Shown here: piece after piece, positions 2,384-8,464 of the stretch | How the letters are laid out: the number at the start of each line of letters is the position of its first letter | Numbering within the stretch: position 1 is the first letter of the stretch | Assembly (NCBI GenBank): GCA_015068055.1 | Contig: SVLG01000067.1 | Span: 1-9,183, forward strand | Direction: 5' to 3' | Length of the DNA stretch: 9,183 bases | Source of the DNA: Oscillospiraceae bacterium | GTDB lineage: Bacteria > Bacillota_A > Clostridia > Oscillospirales > Oscillospiraceae | Notes under the pieces: generated by a model | What the model was told of the DNA's origin: nothing | Seen by the model: the letters and a program-made list of their open reading frames with translations, nothing else | The model's database searches: none | Program-made: the position numbers and the translations under genes

Positions 2384-2806
2384 TCAATCCACGGCATTGC
2401 TCAGGGTGCGGAGCATTTTTTCAAAAAGGGCCAGTTCCTCGGGGGAGTACTCAGCCTCCAGCTTTTTAACCGCCTCATGGATAAAAACATCGCTGGTGTC
2501 GTAGTAGCGGTGGAAACGGTCGGACACATGGAGATGACACTCCCGCCGGTCATCCTCGGAGATGGTCTTCTGCACATAACCCTTGGTGGAAAGGTTGTTG
2601 ACCTTGTAAGTGGCGTTGGGTTGGGAAATGCCCAGCGTGTCGGCCAACTGGGTGATGGTGGGCTTTTCCAGCAGGTAGATTACGTCGGCGGCAAAGGCCT
2701 CGGTGGCGGAGAGAGAGCCGTCCTTTTCGCGGATACGGCCGAACATCTCCCGGTAGTTGAGAAGCCGGAAACGTTTATAAAGACGGATGACCTCGTCGGT
2801 GAGCAT
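2384..2806 (-). CDS. MarR-family transcriptional regulator
   Basis: The protein has 140 residues, usual for MarR. The winged helix-turn-helix covers residues about 48-95: PTITQLADTLGISQPNATYKV forms the helix-turn-helix, and NNLSTKGYVQKTISEDDRRE the recognition-helix end and wing, including the family's DRR motif at 86-88. Flanking N- and C-terminal helices (5-25 and 105-138) would form the dimer interface. The start at 2806 is supported by GAGGAGG six bases upstream, and a consensus promoter lies at 2839-2868. The gene sits directly upstream of the symporter gene on the same strand, so it probably regulates that unit and itself. The ligand is not evident. Three Cys or fewer are present, so a thiol-redox sensor role is not suggested by the sequence. 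Confidence 0.88.
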   Translation of the reverse strand: MLTDEVIRLYKRFRLLNYREMFGRIREKDGSLSATEAFAADVIYLLEKPTITQLADTLGISQPNATYKVNNLSTKGYVQKTISEDDRRECHLHVSDRFHRYYDTSDVFIHEAVKKLEAEYSPEELALFEKMLRTLSNAVD

Positions 2807-2838
2807 GGCAGCCTCCTCTGTTTGGATAATTAAAGATT

Positions 2839-2868
2839 ATTATATATTTTCCGGGGCTCTTTTGTCAA
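2839..2868 (-). promoter_or_regulatory. Consensus sigma-A promoter of the marR-symporter-csoR unit
   Basis: Perfect TTGACA (2863-2868), 18-base spacer and perfect TATAAT (2839-2844) on the minus strand, 32 bases before the marR start codon. The -35 box begins only one base after the T tract of the preceding operon's terminator. Confidence 0.85.
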
Positions 2869-2869
2869 T

Positions 2870-2900
2870 AAAAAAGCCCCGGAGTCCCTTGCTCCGGAGC
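2870..2900 (-). terminator. Intrinsic terminator of the corrinoid methyl-transfer operon
   Basis: On the minus strand GCTCCGGAG (2892-2900) pairs with CTCCGGGGC (2876-2884) as 9 bp with one G-U, loop of 7, followed by six T (2870-2875). It lies 16 bases after the methyltransferase stop codon. Confidence 0.9.
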
Positions 2901-2916
2901 TTTGAAAGTGTGTGGA

Positions 2917-3720
2917 TCAGTCCCTGACCGGGCCAAAGAGGTTTTCGCGGAAGGCGCCGATGTACTCAGCGCAGTATTCATCCTCGCCCAGAAGGGCCTG
3001 CGTGGCGTAAATAATGCCCATCATATCCCGGTTGCTGGGGTCCACAATGGCGCTGTCCATACCGGCCTGCATGGCCAGAGTCATGAAGGCCATGTTCAGC
3101 ATTTTACGCACCGGGAGACCAAAGGAGATGTTGCTGAGTCCCGAGGTAATGTGAACGTCGGGCGCGATGGCGCGGATACCCCGGCAGGTGGCACTGAAGG
3201 TCAGCAGACTTTCCTGATTGGTGGCCAGACCCTCCACCAGCGGGTCGATAAAGAGCCGTTTGGGGGCGATGCCGTATTTGGCAGCCTTGTCCATGAGCCG
3301 CTTGAAGTTTTCCAGCCGGTCCTCCGCAGAGGCGGGGATGCCCCGTTCGCCGGAGAGAAGGGCCACACAGCCCCAGCGGCTGTCGGCAATGGCCGGGAAG
3401 ACCACGTCGATCTTGTCCCCTTCCAGAGAGACGGAGTTGATGAGACCGGGCTTTTTGCAGTACTGCATGGCATCTACGCAGACTCTGGGATCCGGACTGT
3501 CCACGCAGACTTTGGCGGAGGTTTCATCCTGTACAATGTCCAGAAGCCACTTCATGGTGTTCAGTTCATCCACATTGACGCTGGCGCAGCAGTCGATGTA
3601 GTCGGCGCTGGCATCCTCCTGAATGCGGGCGAGATGACGGATCCATGCCTCGTTGCCTTCGGCAATGGCCTTGCCCACGGAGGGAATGCTGCCGTTGATC
3701 TTTTCGCCGATAATAATCAT
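2917..3720 (-). CDS. Pterin-binding (DHPS-fold) methyltetrahydrofolate:corrinoid methyltransferase
   Basis: The 267-residue protein has the length and sequence pattern of the TIM-barrel methyltransferases related to dihydropteroate synthase, such as AcsE/MeTr and MtgA. The N-terminus MIIIGEKINGSIPSVGKAI matches the strand-1 signature. The residues that bind the pterin ring in MeTr appear conserved: Asp74 in VCVDS, Asn95 in LINSV, Asp159 in LFIDP and Asn197 in GLSNIS. Such enzymes move a methyl group between tetrahydrofolate and a cob(I)alamin-carrying protein in the cytoplasm. The immediately upstream gene encodes that corrinoid protein, 31 bases away, and the AAGGAG site lies in the gap. Direction and pathway (MtgA-like demethylation, Wood-Ljungdahl, or another route) cannot be told from the window, because neither an MttB/MtgB-type methyltransferase nor CO dehydrogenase genes are visible. 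Confidence 0.85.
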   Translation of the reverse strand: MIIIGEKINGSIPSVGKAIAEGNEAWIRHLARIQEDASADYIDCCASVNVDELNTMKWLLDIVQDETSAKVCVDSPDPRVCVDAMQYCKKPGLINSVSLEGDKIDVVFPAIADSRWGCVALLSGERGIPASAEDRLENFKRLMDKAAKYGIAPKRLFIDPLVEGLATNQESLLTFSATCRGIRAIAPDVHITSGLSNISFGLPVRKMLNMAFMTLAMQAGMDSAIVDPSNRDMMGIIYATQALLGEDEYCAEYIGAFRENLFGPVRD

Positions 3721-3751
3721 AGGGCGCGTTCTCCTTGCCTGAAAGTAGGGG

Positions 3752-4372
3752 TCAGCCGACCAGCTCCCTGGCCTTGACGGCAGCGGCGGCGGCGTTGGAG
3801 GAATAACCTTCGGCCCCGATCTGGTCGGCGTAGGCCTGGGTAATGGGGGCGCCGCCGATCATGACCTTGATGTCGGGATTGAGGGCGTGGACGGCTTTGC
3901 AGGTGGCGGCCATGGAATCCATCGTGGTGGTCAGCAGGGCGGAAAGACCCACCAGACGGCAGTCGGGGTTGGCCTTGAGCGTTTCCACAAACTTTTCAGT
4001 GGGCACGTCCACACCGAGGTCGATGACTTCAAAGCCGGCGGACTCAACCATCATGGCCACCAGATTTTTGCCGATATCATGGAGGTCGCCGGCCACGGTG
4101 CCGACGACGAACTTGCCGTACTTGCCGACGCCCTCGCCGCCCAGTGCGGGTTTAAGCGCATTGACGCCGCGCTGCATGGTTTTGGCGGACACCAGCATTT
4201 CGGGCACATAAAGCTCGTTCCGCTGGAATTTTTCGCCGACACTGTCCATGGCAGCGGTCATGACGCCGAGAATGTCGATGGCGGCGAGCCCCTCGTCCAG
4301 AGCGTCCTGAATGGCCTCCTCGATCTTCTTCAGCTTGCCGGTTTCAACGAGTTTCTTGATGGTGTCCAGCAT
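3752..4372 (-). CDS. Corrinoid (B12-binding) methyl-carrier protein, MtaC/MtbC/MtgC type
   Basis: The protein has 206 residues, normal for the family. Residues 1-85 form the helical cap domain typical of methionine-synthase-like B12 proteins, with EKFQRNELYVPEMLVSAKTM at 47-66. Residues about 87-206 form the Rossmann-like B12-binding domain. DLHDIGKN at 96-103 supplies the Asp-x-His-x-x-Gly motif in which His98 replaces dimethylbenzimidazole as lower cobalt ligand; SALLTTTM near 144 and GGAP near 173 are the other cofactor-contact loops. The protein carries the methyl group on cobalt between a substrate-specific methyltransferase and the pterin-binding enzyme encoded next. The ATG at 4372 follows GAGGAGG at good distance. 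It is the first gene of a two-gene unit ended by the terminator at 2870-2900. No cobalamin riboswitch or reductive-activation gene lies upstream. Confidence 0.93.
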   Translation of the reverse strand: MLDTIKKLVETGKLKKIEEAIQDALDEGLAAIDILGVMTAAMDSVGEKFQRNELYVPEMLVSAKTMQRGVNALKPALGGEGVGKYGKFVVGTVAGDLHDIGKNLVAMMVESAGFEVIDLGVDVPTEKFVETLKANPDCRLVGLSALLTTTMDSMAATCKAVHALNPDIKVMIGGAPITQAYADQIGAEGYSSNAAAAAVKARELVG

Positions 4373-5031: not shown

Positions 5032-5700
5032 TCAGGCGCAGAAACGGTGCTTGCCGATGGTGAGGAGATGGGGCCGGGACCAGATCCACTTGCTGGTGGC
5101 GGTGACGGGATTAAAATAATAGATGGCCCCACCGGAGGGGTCGGCTCCGTTGAGGGCGTCCCGGGCAGCCCGGTAAGCGCTGTCGGCAATGGGCTGGTCA
5201 AACTGCCCGTCGTCCAGACAGGAGAAAGCGCCCCGCTGGTAGATGACACCGGACATGGTGTTGGGGAAGGAGGGGTGGTCCATGCGGTTCAGGACCACGG
5301 CCCCTACGGCTACCTGACCCTGATAAGGTTCTCCCCGGGCTTCGGCGCTGATGAGCCGGGCCAGCAGGTAGACATCACCGTTCCCCTGAGCCCCGCCGCT
5401 TTTTTCCGTGATGCCGAGAGCCGCCAGCGTGGCGGGGCCCACCTTGCCGTCGGCGGTGAGACCGTTTTTCTGCTGAAACTTTTTTACGGCCCGCTCCGTG
5501 CCGCTGCCAAAGATGCCGTCCACGCTGCCGCTGTAGTAGCCCCACTGGCTGAGCTTTTTCTGGATCTCCGTGACGGTGCTGCCGGAACTGCCTTTTTTAT
5601 AGACGGCGGCGCTGGCCTCCTGGGCCATGGAAATAATAAGAACGTTGACCGTAAAGAGGGCAACAAGGGCAAGACAGAGTTTCTTTCTTCCGGCGGACAT
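5032..5700 (-). CDS. sleB: Spore cortex-lytic enzyme, SleB-type cell wall hydrolase
   Basis: The 222-residue protein has a signal peptide (Lys-rich start, hydrophobic 8-25, likely cleavage after ASA at residues 29-31). A peptidoglycan-binding type 1 domain covers about 37-95 (GSSGSTVTEIQKKLSQWGYY, then DGIFGSGTERAVKKFQ and GLTADGKVGPATLAAL). The Hydrolase_2 catalytic domain covers 109-222, with SAEARGEPYQGQVAVGAVVL at 118-137; Glu120 is the expected catalytic acid, and the C-terminal IGKHRFCA is family-typical. SleB is a lytic transglycosylase that acts on spore cortex muramic-delta-lactam during germination. The usual partner ypeB is not adjacent. The Shine-Dalgarno AAAGGAG lies inside a long hairpin (5708-5756) shared in sequence with the thrS terminator. 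No clear sigma-G promoter was found. A foreign insertion now separates it from thrS. Other SleB-like hydrolases (CwlJ type) lack this N-terminal binding domain. Confidence 0.9.
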   Translation of the reverse strand: MSAGRKKLCLALVALFTVNVLIISMAQEASAAVYKKGSSGSTVTEIQKKLSQWGYYSGSVDGIFGSGTERAVKKFQQKNGLTADGKVGPATLAALGITEKSGGAQGNGDVYLLARLISAEARGEPYQGQVAVGAVVLNRMDHPSFPNTMSGVIYQRGAFSCLDDGQFDQPIADSAYRAARDALNGADPSGGAIYYFNPVTATSKWIWSRPHLLTIGKHRFCA

Positions 5701-5756
5701 AATAAAAGGCTCCTTTACAAAGATTTTGGAATGTTCCTTAGTCTTTGAAAGGAGCC
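5701..5756 (-). terminator. Terminator-like hairpin containing the sleB ribosome binding site
   Basis: On the minus strand a 15-bp stem with one bulged base (5742-5756 with 5708-5723) and an inner GGAA/TTCC pairing is followed by TTTTATT. The 3' arm contains AAAGGAG (5710-5716), which is 9 bases from the sleB ATG, and the 5' arm is its complement. In the ancestral arrangement this would terminate thrS and could mask sleB translation on read-through RNA. Confidence 0.75.
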
Positions 5757-5778
5757 ATAATTTTATTTTGCCAAGATT

Positions 5779-5843
5779 TTACTTCTTGAGACGGATCTCC
5801 TCCAGGATACGGGCCTTGAACTCGGCGAAGGGCACGGCACCCT
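5779..5843 (-). pseudogene. Orphan 3' end of thrS (20 codons)
   Basis: It encodes GAVPFAEFKARILEEIRLKK and stop, the same residues as 563-582 of the intact thrS, with two silent differences (codons for Leu575 and Glu577). No coding sequence continues upstream; the match breaks at 5844 into unrelated AT-rich DNA. It is a displaced or duplicated fragment, not a functional gene. Confidence 0.93.
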
Positions 5844-5998
5844 TGCAAGTACAGAGTGCAGCAATTTTTGAAGAATATCTGGAAAAGTGCTTGTCATTAG
5901 GTTATAATACTAACGCTTTCATAAGTATAGCAATGCAGTACGGCTATATTCTTAAAAGTATTAGGTCCTTCATACGGGATGGATTCATGTGGCTGTGA
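5844..5998 (+). pseudogene. 3' fragment of an unidentified gene, cut at the repeat boundary
   Basis: An open frame of about 50 codons enters at the insert boundary and ends at TGA 5996-5998: QVQSAAIFEEYLEKCLSLGY, then NTNAFISIAMQYGYILKSIR and SFIRDGFMWL. The amino-acid pattern (amphipathic helices, aromatic end) looks like a real C-terminus rather than random sequence, and it stops 37 bases before the methyltransferase start, as in an operon. The family is not recognisable from this piece; a neighbour in a surface-polysaccharide cluster is a guess. A start is absent, and in the plus direction the frame continues only into antisense of the thrS tail. Confidence 0.55.
5904..5933 (-). promoter_or_regulatory. 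Weak promoter-like pair facing sleB within the insert
   Basis: TTGCTA (5928-5933), 18-base spacer, TATTAT (5904-5909) on the minus strand, about 200 bases before sleB. Such matches are common by chance in AT-rich DNA, and it lies inside the unknown gene fragment, so confidence is low. Confidence 0.2.
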
Positions 5999-6020
5999 GT
6001 ATCGTTGTATAGAAAATAAA

Positions 6021-6028
6021 AGAGGGGG
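6021..6028 (+). promoter_or_regulatory. Ribosome binding site that fixes the methyltransferase start
   Basis: AGAGGGGG lies 7 bases before the ATG at 6036. An in-frame ATG at 5979 overlaps the preceding fragment's end and has no such site. Confidence 0.75.
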
Positions 6029-6035
6029 AAATTTC

Positions 6036-6620
6036 ATGAGTGATTGGAACAGCCTTGATCGGCTTATTGCCGCAGTTCGGTATCGCGCTATAGATAAATT
6101 TATGCCCGGTGGAATCGTTTGCGATATAGGATGTGGCCAGTCAGCTGATTTTCTAAAACAGCACTCCGCCGTATTTGAAAAGGGATATGGTTTTGATTTC
6201 CGGGTAATTGATCAAGAATTTGATAATATTGTGATTCGAAATAATCGAGGTATGAGGGGAGTTCCTCTTCCTAATGACAGTTGTGATGGGGTCTTTCTTT
6301 TAGCGGTTTTGGAACACTTGGAGGAGCCGACGGCTCTTATGATGGAGATTGCTCGAATCCTAAAGCCGGGTGGGTGTTTCGTTATGACCACTCCGACTAG
6401 GTTGGCAAAGCCTATTTTAGAATTTATGGCCTTTCGGCTTCATATCATCAATGAGGAAGAGATCCAGGAGCATAAGCATTATTATACCCTCGATGAAATT
6501 AGGAGTTTACTTTCTAACGCCGGACTTGTATGTATCCACCACCGAAAATTCTCTTTTGGTGTAAACCGATTGGCCGTCGCAGGCAAACCCGCTGCCGGAG
6601 ATGGCTCTTTGGAAGATTAA
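6036..6620 (+). CDS. Class I SAM-dependent methyltransferase (Methyltransf_11-like)
   Basis: The protein has 194 residues from the ATG at 6036. Motif I is IVCDIGCGQSADF (27-39), the acidic post-I position falls in GYGFDF (50-55), motif II/III is FLLAVLEHLEEP (87-98), and ILKPGGCFVMTTPT (108-121) completes the small-molecule/lipid-type SAM fold. The C-terminal part has HKHYYTLDEIRSLLSNAGL (146-164), a feature seen in methyltransferases of polysaccharide and lipid clusters, but the substrate is unknown. The gene is about 43% GC, uses A/T-ending codons much more than its neighbours, and is on the opposite strand, so it was very probably acquired. It converges on thrS, whose terminator hairpin lies 25 bases beyond the TAA-TAG double stop. 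No clear promoter of its own was found; it was probably downstream of the truncated gene in the donor. Confidence 0.85.
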   Translation: MSDWNSLDRLIAAVRYRAIDKFMPGGIVCDIGCGQSADFLKQHSAVFEKGYGFDFRVIDQEFDNIVIRNNRGMRGVPLPNDSCDGVFLLAVLEHLEEPTALMMEIARILKPGGCFVMTTPTRLAKPILEFMAFRLHIINEEEIQEHKHYYTLDEIRSLLSNAGLVCIHHRKFSFGVNRLAVAGKPAAGDGSLED

Positions 6621-6632
6621 TAGTTTTAAACA

Positions 6633-6780
6633 GACATAATAAAAGGCTCCTTTGCAAAGATTTTGGAATGTTCCTTAGTCTTTGAAAGGAGCCATAATTT
6701 TATTTTGCCAAGATTTTACTTCTTGAGACGGATTTCCTCAAGGATACGGGCCTTGAACTCGGCGAAGGGCACGGCACCCT
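6633..6780 (-). repeat. Direct repeat copy B: 3' end of intact thrS and its terminator
   Basis: Counterpart of 5696-5843. It is continuous with the full thrS gene. At its far end it includes the former sleB start (ATGTC), which here continues into insert sequence and stops after three codons (M-S-V). Confidence 0.97.
6638..6693 (-). terminator. Intrinsic terminator of thrS
   Basis: Same hairpin as at 5701-5756, starting 22 bases after the thrS stop, with the single difference at the bulged base (6654) and the same TTTTATT tail on the minus strand. It may also stop plus-strand transcription of the methyltransferase. Confidence 0.8.
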
Positions 6781-8464
6781 CGTCGCCGGCGCGGCTGCGG
6801 ACGGCCACGGCGCCCTGCTCGGCTTCCTTGTCGCCGATGACCAGCAGGTAGGGCAGCTTCTGGGTGCGGGCTTCGGCGATCTTCTTGCCAATCTTTTCGT
6901 TGCGGAGGTCAAGCTCGCAGCGGATGCCGGCTTCCTCCAGCTCGGCGGCCAGCTTCTGGGCGTAGTCGTTGGTGCGGTCGGTGATGGTCATGAGACGAAC
7001 CTGCACGGGAGCCAGCCAGGCGGGGAAGGCACCGGCGTAATGCTCGGTGATGACGCCGATGAAGCGCTCGATGGAGCCGAGAACCACACGGTGGATCATG
7101 ACGGGGCGGTGCTTCTCGCCGTCGGCGCCGGTGTACTCCAGCTCAAAGCGCTCGGGCAGCTGCATATCCAGCTGGATGGTGCCGCACTGCCAGGTGCGGC
7201 CCAGAGAGTCGGCCAGATGGAAGTCCAGCTTGGGGCCGTAGAAGGCGCCGTCGCCCTCGTTGATGATGTAGTCCTTGCCCATCTCGCTGACGGCTTCCTT
7301 CAGCGTCTCGGTAGCGAAGTCCCAGTCCTTCTCATCGCCCATGTGGTCTTCGGGCATGGTGGAAACTTCGATCTGGTAGCTCAGGCCGAAGACGGAGTAG
7401 ACCTCGTCAAAGAGGCGGACCACGTTCTTGATCTCGTCCTTCATCTGCTCCCAGGTCATGAAGATGTGGGCGTCGTCCTGAGTGAAGCAGCGGACGCGGA
7501 AAAGACCGTGGAGAGCGCCGGAGAGCTCATGGCGGTGGACAAGACCCAGCTCACCCACGCGCATGGGCAGATCGCGGTAGGAGTGGGGCTCGTTCTTATA
7601 GACCAGCATGCCGCCGGGGCAGTTCATGGGCTTGACGGCGAAGTCGGTCTCGTCGATGACGGTGGTGTACATGTTCTGCTTGTAGTGACCCCAGTGACCG
7701 CTGCGCTCCCAGAGCTGGCGGTTGAGCATCATGGGAGTGGAAATTTCCACGTAGCCGTACTTCTTATGCACCTGACGCCAGTAGTCGATGAGGGTGTTGC
7801 GCAGCACCATGCCCTTGGGCAGGAAGAAGGGGAAGCCGGGGCCCTCGTCCATGAGGGTGAAAAGGCCCAGCTCCTTGCCAAGCTTGCGGTGGTCGCGCTT
7901 CTTGGCTTCCTCAATGCGCTGGATATACTCGTCCAGCAGATCCTTGCTGGGGAAGGCCACGGCGTAAAGACGCTGGAGCATCTTGCGGCTGGAGTCACCC
8001 CGCCAGTAAGCGCCGGTGACGCTGGTGATCTTCATGCCGTTGCCCTTGACGCGGCCGGTGGAGTCCAGATGGGGACCGGCGCAGAGGTCGGTGAAGTCGG
8101 CCTGCTTGTAGAAGGAAATGACGGCGTCCTCGGGGAGATCGTTGATCAGCTCCACCTTGTAGGGCTGCTCCATTTCTTCCATGAGCTTGAGAGCCTCGGC
8201 GCGGGGCAGCTCAAAGCGCTCCAGCTTGATCTTTTCCTTGCAGATCTTGCGCATCTCGGCTTCGATGGCGTCGAAGTCCTCGGGGGTGAAGACATGCTCG
8301 GAGTCGATGTCATAGTAGAAGCCCTCCTCAATGGCGGGGCCGATGGCAAACTTGGTGCCCGGATAGAGACGCTGCACCGCCTGAGCCATGATGTGGCTGC
8401 AGGTGTGGTGATACTTGTGACGGTATTCGGGGTTTTCCCAGCTGAATTCAAAGTTCTCGCTCAT
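6716..8464 (-). CDS. thrS: Threonine--tRNA ligase, TGS-less form
   Basis: The 582-residue class II synthetase charges tRNA-Thr with threonine. The editing domain has His20 and His24 (HHTCSHIMAQA) plus Cys128 and His132 (LCAGPHLDS), matching the HxxxH and CxxxH set that hydrolyses Ser-tRNA-Thr. The catalytic core has class II motif 2 near RCFTQDDAHIF (325-335) and motif 3 near IHRVVLGSIERFIG (457-470); the zinc ligands that recognise threonine are Cys282, His333 and His458. The anticodon-binding domain covers about 485-582. The N-terminal TGS domain of the usual roughly 640-residue enzyme is missing; the ATG at 8464 with AAGGAGG upstream, directly after the T-box terminator, shows this is the natural start and not a truncation. 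Expression is controlled by the T-box leader. The last 20 codons are duplicated at 5779-5843. Confidence 0.98.
   Translation of the reverse strand: MSENFEFSWENPEYRHKYHHTCSHIMAQAVQRLYPGTKFAIGPAIEEGFYYDIDSEHVFTPEDFDAIEAEMRKICKEKIKLERFELPRAEALKLMEEMEQPYKVELINDLPEDAVISFYKQADFTDLCAGPHLDSTGRVKGNGMKITSVTGAYWRGDSSRKMLQRLYAVAFPSKDLLDEYIQRIEEAKKRDHRKLGKELGLFTLMDEGPGFPFFLPKGMVLRNTLIDYWRQVHKKYGYVEISTPMMLNRQLWERSGHWGHYKQNMYTTVIDETDFAVKPMNCPGGMLVYKNEPHSYRDLPMRVGELGLVHRHELSGALHGLFRVRCFTQDDAHIFMTWEQMKDEIKNVVRLFDEVYSVFGLSYQIEVSTMPEDHMGDEKDWDFATETLKEAVSEMGKDYIINEGDGAFYGPKLDFHLADSLGRTWQCGTIQLDMQLPERFELEYTGADGEKHRPVMIHRVVLGSIERFIGVITEHYAGAFPAWLAPVQVRLMTITDRTNDYAQKLAAELEEAGIRCELDLRNEKIGKKIAEARTQKLPYLLVIGDKEAEQGAVAVRSRAGDEGAVPFAEFKARILEEIRLKK

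Follow-up and report, generated by a model that had tools for sequence, protein, structure and literature searches.

How did a low-GC methyltransferase gene come to lie between thrS and sleB, and what is the sequence that now flanks it on both sides? The window, by which we mean the whole stretch of 9,183 nucleotides that was analysed, carries on its minus strand thrS, assigned by Pfam as a threonyl-tRNA synthetase of 582 aa (6716..8464), and sleB, a spore cortex-lytic enzyme of 222 aa with PF07486 and PF01471 domains (5032..5700). We propose, with a probability of about 0.6, that some 789 bp of foreign-looking DNA was inserted between these two genes, that the 148-bp junction of the host now stands on both sides of it, and that the leader duplicated in this way acts as a gate.

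A repeat search of the window located direct repeats of 148 bp at 5696-5843 and 6633-6780, 98% identical and with a spacing of 937, in agreement with the initial annotation, which had read three mismatches between them. These are at 5717, 5797 and 5803; the last two belong to the thrS tail and, counted from the coordinates, both fall on third codon positions, and the mismatch positions leave 79 bp (5718-5796) as the longest exact run common to the copies. The runner-up family of direct repeats in the window is only 31 nt long, with other copies 65-71% identical, and chance is thus excluded as the source of the 148-bp repeat. Each copy begins on the thrS side with 65 nt of coding sequence, stop included, and continues through a hairpin to the ribosome-binding site of sleB and an ATG. 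As located by repeat search and alignment, the thrS-side copy (6633..6780) contains the authentic thrS end followed by a sleB-type leader and an orphan ATG, and the sleB-side copy (5696..5843) contains the final 65 nt of thrS with the stop, together with the leader and ATG that serve sleB, so that both neighbours do keep their full flanks, as had been claimed. The insert between the copies (789 bp, 5844..6632) has a GC content of 0.418 (41.8%) against 0.581 (58.1%) in the flanks, where the lowest value for any stretch of 789 bp is 0.506, bearing out the much lower GC first remarked on. At third codon positions GC is 40% in the inserted methyltransferase gene and 86% in thrS.

The insert had been described as containing genes in the plural; one intact gene stands (6036-6620, plus strand), the other being a 51-codon open frame. 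The former encodes an apparently intact class I SAM-dependent methyltransferase of 194 aa, which matches PF13489 (Methyltransf_23) with an E-value of 2.9e-17 and 63.3 bits over a cut-off of 27, and in which D30, G32, C33 and G34 of the conserved SAM motif region are invariant across 20 sequences. The best-scoring other proteins are 57-60% identical to it. Its protein cluster has 3 member sequences on 6 contigs, of which the longest measures 9183 bases, as does the window; other contigs thus carry the gene too. In searches run without a positive control it was matched in 0 of 300 genomes of the family (E 1e-20), 0 of 391 of the class (E 1e-30) and, with a profile, 0 of 299 of the phylum (E 1e-25). 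A viral, phage or plasmid origin of the insert was considered and set aside, no relatives of the methyltransferase being found in viral contigs or in phage and plasmid sets. The open frame, on the plus strand, begins at the boundary of the repeat, closes with a stop (5844..5998) and resembles the 3' end of a truncated gene; family and protein searches gave neither a family match nor a homologue for it.

The comparison of the thrS-sleB region across relatives, a check set beforehand, shows a junction that is mostly free of any insert. The survey took in the best 80 of the 187 stretches that encode a relative of sleB; 23 of them have thrS and sleB on the same strand, with a short gap (53-254 bp) in 20 of these 23 loci. 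Without the insert, the single-copy junction of the window would measure 78 bp from thrS to the ATG (82 by the measure of the survey), which falls within that range and supports an insertion into an ordinary short junction. The three long gaps are of 2664 bp (L014), 1801 bp (L019) and 914 bp (L026), and their contents differ, namely a GtrII-type protein in L014 (3946-5541), another methyltransferase in L026 (5109-5936) and an ORF without family in L019 (4553-5044); the thrS-tail repeat is absent from all three. Thus, related elements at the same site were not encountered elsewhere, 20 of the 23 loci being short and the remaining three carrying other inserts without that repeat, and a larger version of the element was seen in none of the 23 loci drawn from the best 80 of 187 sleB relatives. 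The loci with long gaps belong to three other species with unrelated cargo between thrS and sleB, and the hairpin leader of sleB is kept in L014 and L026. The relatives compared are other species, and no genome of the same species lacking the insert came to light; the nearest of the genomes compared match thrS DNA at no more than 84%. A sleB protein search yielded four clusters 95-97% identical, which represent 6 contigs, the longest of only 2036 bases. The GC content of the insert and the junctions of the relatives together support the initial description of a low-GC, foreign-looking methyltransferase segment that is enclosed by repeats at the 3' end of thrS. Because the two arms are 98% alike, with third-position changes in the thrS tail, and the nearest thrS is at most 84% identical, both arms derive from this or a very close species, and the foreign part was joined to a copy of the species' own junction. 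The 148-bp repeat is therefore, to judge by its sequence, host junction and not the attachment site of an element.

Several routes could lead to this arrangement. A fragment with a complete methyltransferase gene and the apparent end of a cut gene would have entered between thrS and sleB. Single crossover leaves direct repeats of the homology around an insert, and here the homologous target is found duplicated directly around the inserted DNA; a Campbell-type integration of a molecule already bearing this junction is thus a possible joining step, and the repair of a break, duplicating the junction around a captured fragment, would be another. The data fit both, and the joining was probably by one or the other; as for a donor with the same homology, the plasmid search gave no match and the hairpin was unmatched in viral contigs. 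A decayed island, among the origins suggested at first, would have brought its own integrase, recombined at the 3' end of thrS and then shed every gene except one, with the repeats as attL and attR. Islands often integrate at the 3' end of a housekeeping gene, and direct repeats do flank foreign-looking DNA with thrS restored to its whole length, but no integrase or excisionase accompanies them, the sole intact gene of the insert being the methyltransferase and none of the 11 ORFs of the window tested against Pfam being an integrase. No larger version appears in the 23 loci, and L014, L019 and L026 are devoid of the thrS-tail repeat. Moreover, the repeats are host sequence that includes thrS codons, and an attP shared among hosts would hardly be 98% identical over 148 bp to a junction whose nearest thrS relatives reach at most 84%. 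We regard a decayed island as rather improbable.

An artefact of assembly or library, in which fragments or strains were misjoined at the repeat, deserves attention, since the window is one contig of 9183 bp and the composition of its insert is sharply different; but it would take two independent false joins, an exact match of 79 bp is short for a join in an assembly graph at the usual word sizes, and the presence of the methyltransferase cluster on several contigs also speaks against it, so that we consider such a misjoin quite improbable. The strong hairpin within each repeat copy had further raised the idea of a cassette-like system using the hairpin as recombination site. This we hold to be most improbable, as this hairpin also stands before sleB in relatives whose junctions are short and insert-free and in G008, no recombinase was found, and the other filled junctions do not have their cargo between two hairpin copies. 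Neither the island nor the cassette is supported, both fitting less well than crossover or break repair. As far as can be judged from sequence alone, the insertion is real; it looks recent and is of a known kind. It may have been tolerated because each neighbour kept a complete set of signals, thrS its end and terminator and sleB its promoter and leader; in what is a clean case, a single foreign-looking gene has been placed in a core junction with neither neighbour broken, an event that is ordinary in kind.

Elsewhere in the window, a metal-sensitive repressor (PF02583), whose N-terminus is very rich in histidine, is encoded at 506-856 on the minus strand. At 2384-4372, also on the minus strand, a gene for a B12-binding protein is followed by genes for a pterin-binding enzyme and a MarR-type regulator, and after these comes a weak match to a glutamate symporter (871-2328). 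The group of B12-binding and pterin-binding genes looks like a corrinoid methyl-transfer unit.

The leader that was duplicated is, in our opinion, of more interest than the insertion itself. It forms a hairpin with the Shine-Dalgarno in its 3' arm (5708..5756, minus strand; from folding and alignment), and a run of U follows the hairpin. An imperfect sigma-G-like -10, AAGACTA, recognised by reading and alignment, is localised at the hairpin tip (5739..5745, minus strand), and a weak sigma-G-like -35, AAATA, can be read 18 nt from it (5764..5768, minus strand). The window's own boxes do not fit the strict pattern GHATR-N16-19-CANNNTA, in which we take the heptamer CANNNTA to be the sigma-G -10. 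Rfam gave no match in the window at gathering scores; the leader folds 6.2 standard deviations below shuffles, and the same hairpin precedes sleB in relatives, including G008, in which about 4.7 kb separates sleB from thrS.

For the alignment 16 leaders were chosen, those of the window and of 15 of the 23 junction loci, with the exclusion of L001, L015, L019, L033 and L043, whose hairpin is longer-looped, different or absent, and also of L021, L029 and L078. The analysis of these leaders reveals a helix of 13 pairs, nine of which have changed on both sides with pairing kept. The covariation score is 0.519, as compared with a shuffle mean of 0.249 (reached by 0 of 500 shuffles) and with 0.088-0.203 in slid controls; milder measures are attained by some shuffles, namely the number of both-side changes (9) by 15 of 500 and that of further pair types by 26 of 500. 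The Shine-Dalgarno lies within the 3' arm in all 16 leaders, the strict promoter pattern is present in 13, and the loop bases A, T and A of the CANNNTA heptamer, which are unneeded for pairing, are conserved. Upstream of sleB at large the strict pattern occurs in 25 of 81 stretches, against a mean of 1.7 and a maximum of 6 in shuffles that preserve single-base composition only, and several of these 25 (e.g. L002, L007, L038 and L063) have no Shine-Dalgarno hairpin. Alignment and folding give good support to the interpretation of the sleB leader as a hairpin that covaries, contains the Shine-Dalgarno and encloses a putative sporulation promoter.

How might such a leader work? When the full leader is folded, every base of the Shine-Dalgarno is paired in all 16 chosen sequences (-20.0 to -30.5 kcal/mol), that is, the ribosome-binding site is predicted to be closed in the long RNA. 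From the inferred start six bases past the -10, in contrast, the best fold has -3.3 kcal/mol or weaker, the 5' arm being predicted to be absent from the RNA of the sporulation promoter from the position of the -10. In this short transcript 0 or 1 Shine-Dalgarno bases are paired in eight leaders, 2 or 3 in four, and at least 4 in L016, L032, L034 and L036 (the L032 slice ends before the ATG). The duplicated sleB leader most likely serves as a gate. RNA reading through from upstream would fold the hairpin and mask the sleB Shine-Dalgarno, while RNA begun at the sigma-G-like promoter would start in or just after the loop, lack the 5' arm and be translatable. The hairpin would in this way both end upstream transcripts and hide the Shine-Dalgarno, with the -10 of a sporulation sigma factor at its tip. 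On this view the thrS-side copy would be an orphan gate left by the insertion of the methyltransferase.

We searched for similar hairpins before other genes by using a covariance model, R1, built from sleB leaders. In the window it matches the sleB-side copy at 5698-5776 (minus strand, 39.8 bits, this sequence being in the training set of the model) and the thrS-side copy at 6635-6713 (minus strand, 37.2 bits). Nine genomes of the genus gave 51 matches at E <=1, spread over eight of them, and 27 of the fetched loci were inspected. Besides sleB, a hairpin whose 3' arm contains the Shine-Dalgarno precedes sigG (L163, E 0.11) and, in two cases, ypeB (L150, E 0.03; L157, E 0.09); the same type of hairpin lies upstream of a secreted tandem-repeat protein (L144, E 3e-4; L145, E 6e-4), and another precedes an 83-aa protein without NCBIfam match (L154, E 0.15). 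In the family, 51 matches at E <=0.01 are distributed over 42 of 120 genomes, 43 of them leading to a start codon that opens an ORF of at least 50 aa and eight not; these 43 ORFs are sleB in 19 cases and other genes in 24. When 23 of the 24 non-sleB proteins were tested, six belonged to spore families (YpeB, SpoVT, SpoVAC, SpoIIR and, twice, YabP), and the remainder included a TIGR04086 membrane protein, a Se/S-carrier-like protein, a CBS protein, three tandem-repeat proteins and unknowns.

In the class, R1 gives 28 matches at E <=0.001 in 25 of 196 genomes. Apart from L145, 15 of the 27 precede an ORF and 12 do not; comparison of nine of these ORFs with NCBIfam identified one spore photoproduct lyase (splB, L220), two GerA-type germination proteins and one TIGR04086 protein. 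The SpoVAC, SpoIIR and photoproduct lyase matches are above the NCBI curated cut-offs, and those to YabP, YpeB, SpoVT, SigG and GerXA are below them, though with low E-values. The nine also include a transposase (L240), a dehydrogenase (L218) and an iron hydrogenase (L222), which indicates that R1 finds other hairpins that hide a ribosome-binding site as well. Since the model is ignorant of gene identity, the spore genes downstream of its matches constitute independent support for the hairpin.

Two groups of proteins among those encoded behind R1 matches can be described here. Those of L144, L145, L197 and L216 are secreted-looking, have 281-322 aa with a repeat of tandem-95 type and are candidate spore or forespore proteins. 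Those of L186, L191, L192 and L213, of 183-191 aa and without Pfam match, lie behind a hairpin leader and are linked by BLASTP at E 1e-10 or better in the pairs L186-L213, L186-L191 and L192-L213; they may form a sporulation family.

Not all of these matches have a clear promoter. Among the family matches the strict pattern is present in 2 of 19 leaders of sleB, none of 6 of spore-named genes, 4 of 18 of other ORFs and none of the 8 without an ORF. A relaxed pattern, which was set after the sequences had been seen, is present in 16 of 19, 3 of 6, 7 of 18 and 3 of 8, respectively, with means of 2.7 (maximum 8), 1.0 (maximum 3), 1.6 and 0.9 in the same order for shuffles that, again, preserve single-base composition only. 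The strict pattern is found before sigG (L163), the tandem-repeat genes of L144, L145 and L197, and the photoproduct lyase gene (L220); before ypeB, L157 has a -10 only and L150 neither box. These counts give the promoter good support at sleB and weak support at most other genes.

They also bear on a plainer reading of the leader, as an ordinary thrS terminator that overlaps the next promoter through compactness and hides no Shine-Dalgarno. A hairpin followed by a run of U is what a terminator would look like, some model matches precede genes without a link to spores, and outside sleB the spore-named genes offer the strict pattern in 0 of 6 cases and the relaxed one in 3, for a shuffle mean of 0.98 and a maximum of 3. 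A terminator of thrS, on the other hand, would not account for the hairpin kept in G008 though thrS is elsewhere, for a Shine-Dalgarno in the 3' arm of every aligned leader, or for the strict promoter in 13 of 16 together with -10 loop bases conserved though unneeded for pairing; such a terminator we think unlikely, and we retain the gate as the reading of the sleB leader. Extended beyond sleB, the proposal would be that forespore genes of Oscillospiraceae, perhaps of Clostridia more widely, share the design of a promoter inside a closed hairpin, with only RNA begun by a sporulation sigma factor being translated, and that the window holds two such gates, one of them orphaned. The odds of this general form being right seem even to us; it is testable and unproven.

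How do the insertion and the gate compare with known systems? Foreign DNA enters at shared sequence in single-crossover integration and in homology-facilitated recombination, as it would have done here, but a single-crossover donor would have to be of about 937 bp or to have been shortened later. Homology-facilitated illegitimate recombination is described in the accessible part of PMC3240628. With linear DNA, in our view, such recombination would by itself predict no duplication, unlike what is seen here. With genomic islands at 3' ends our locus has in common the position, the restored gene and the flanking direct repeats, and it differs from them in the want of an integrase and in a repeat that is made of host codons and the leader of the next gene and is long for an att core; our literature search found no report of thrS as an integration target, nor any description of such a leader for sleB. 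The nearest parallel to the gate is a hairpin that blocks read-through with the same logic, which the accessible part of PMC5942855 proposes for B. subtilis sigG alone, and the layout before sleB would work like it. In comparison with that hairpin, as far as that part of PMC5942855 describes it, a covarying helix of 13 pairs with a sigma-G-like -10 at its tip is found here before sleB of many Oscillospiraceae, and similar hairpins, with a promoter pattern that is clear or not, stand before other genes. If the gate is true, what has been put forward as a safeguard of a single gene in B. subtilis would be a recurrent, evolving layout of sleB and other spore genes, and would provide a sequence signature for the forespore genes of uncultured spore-formers.
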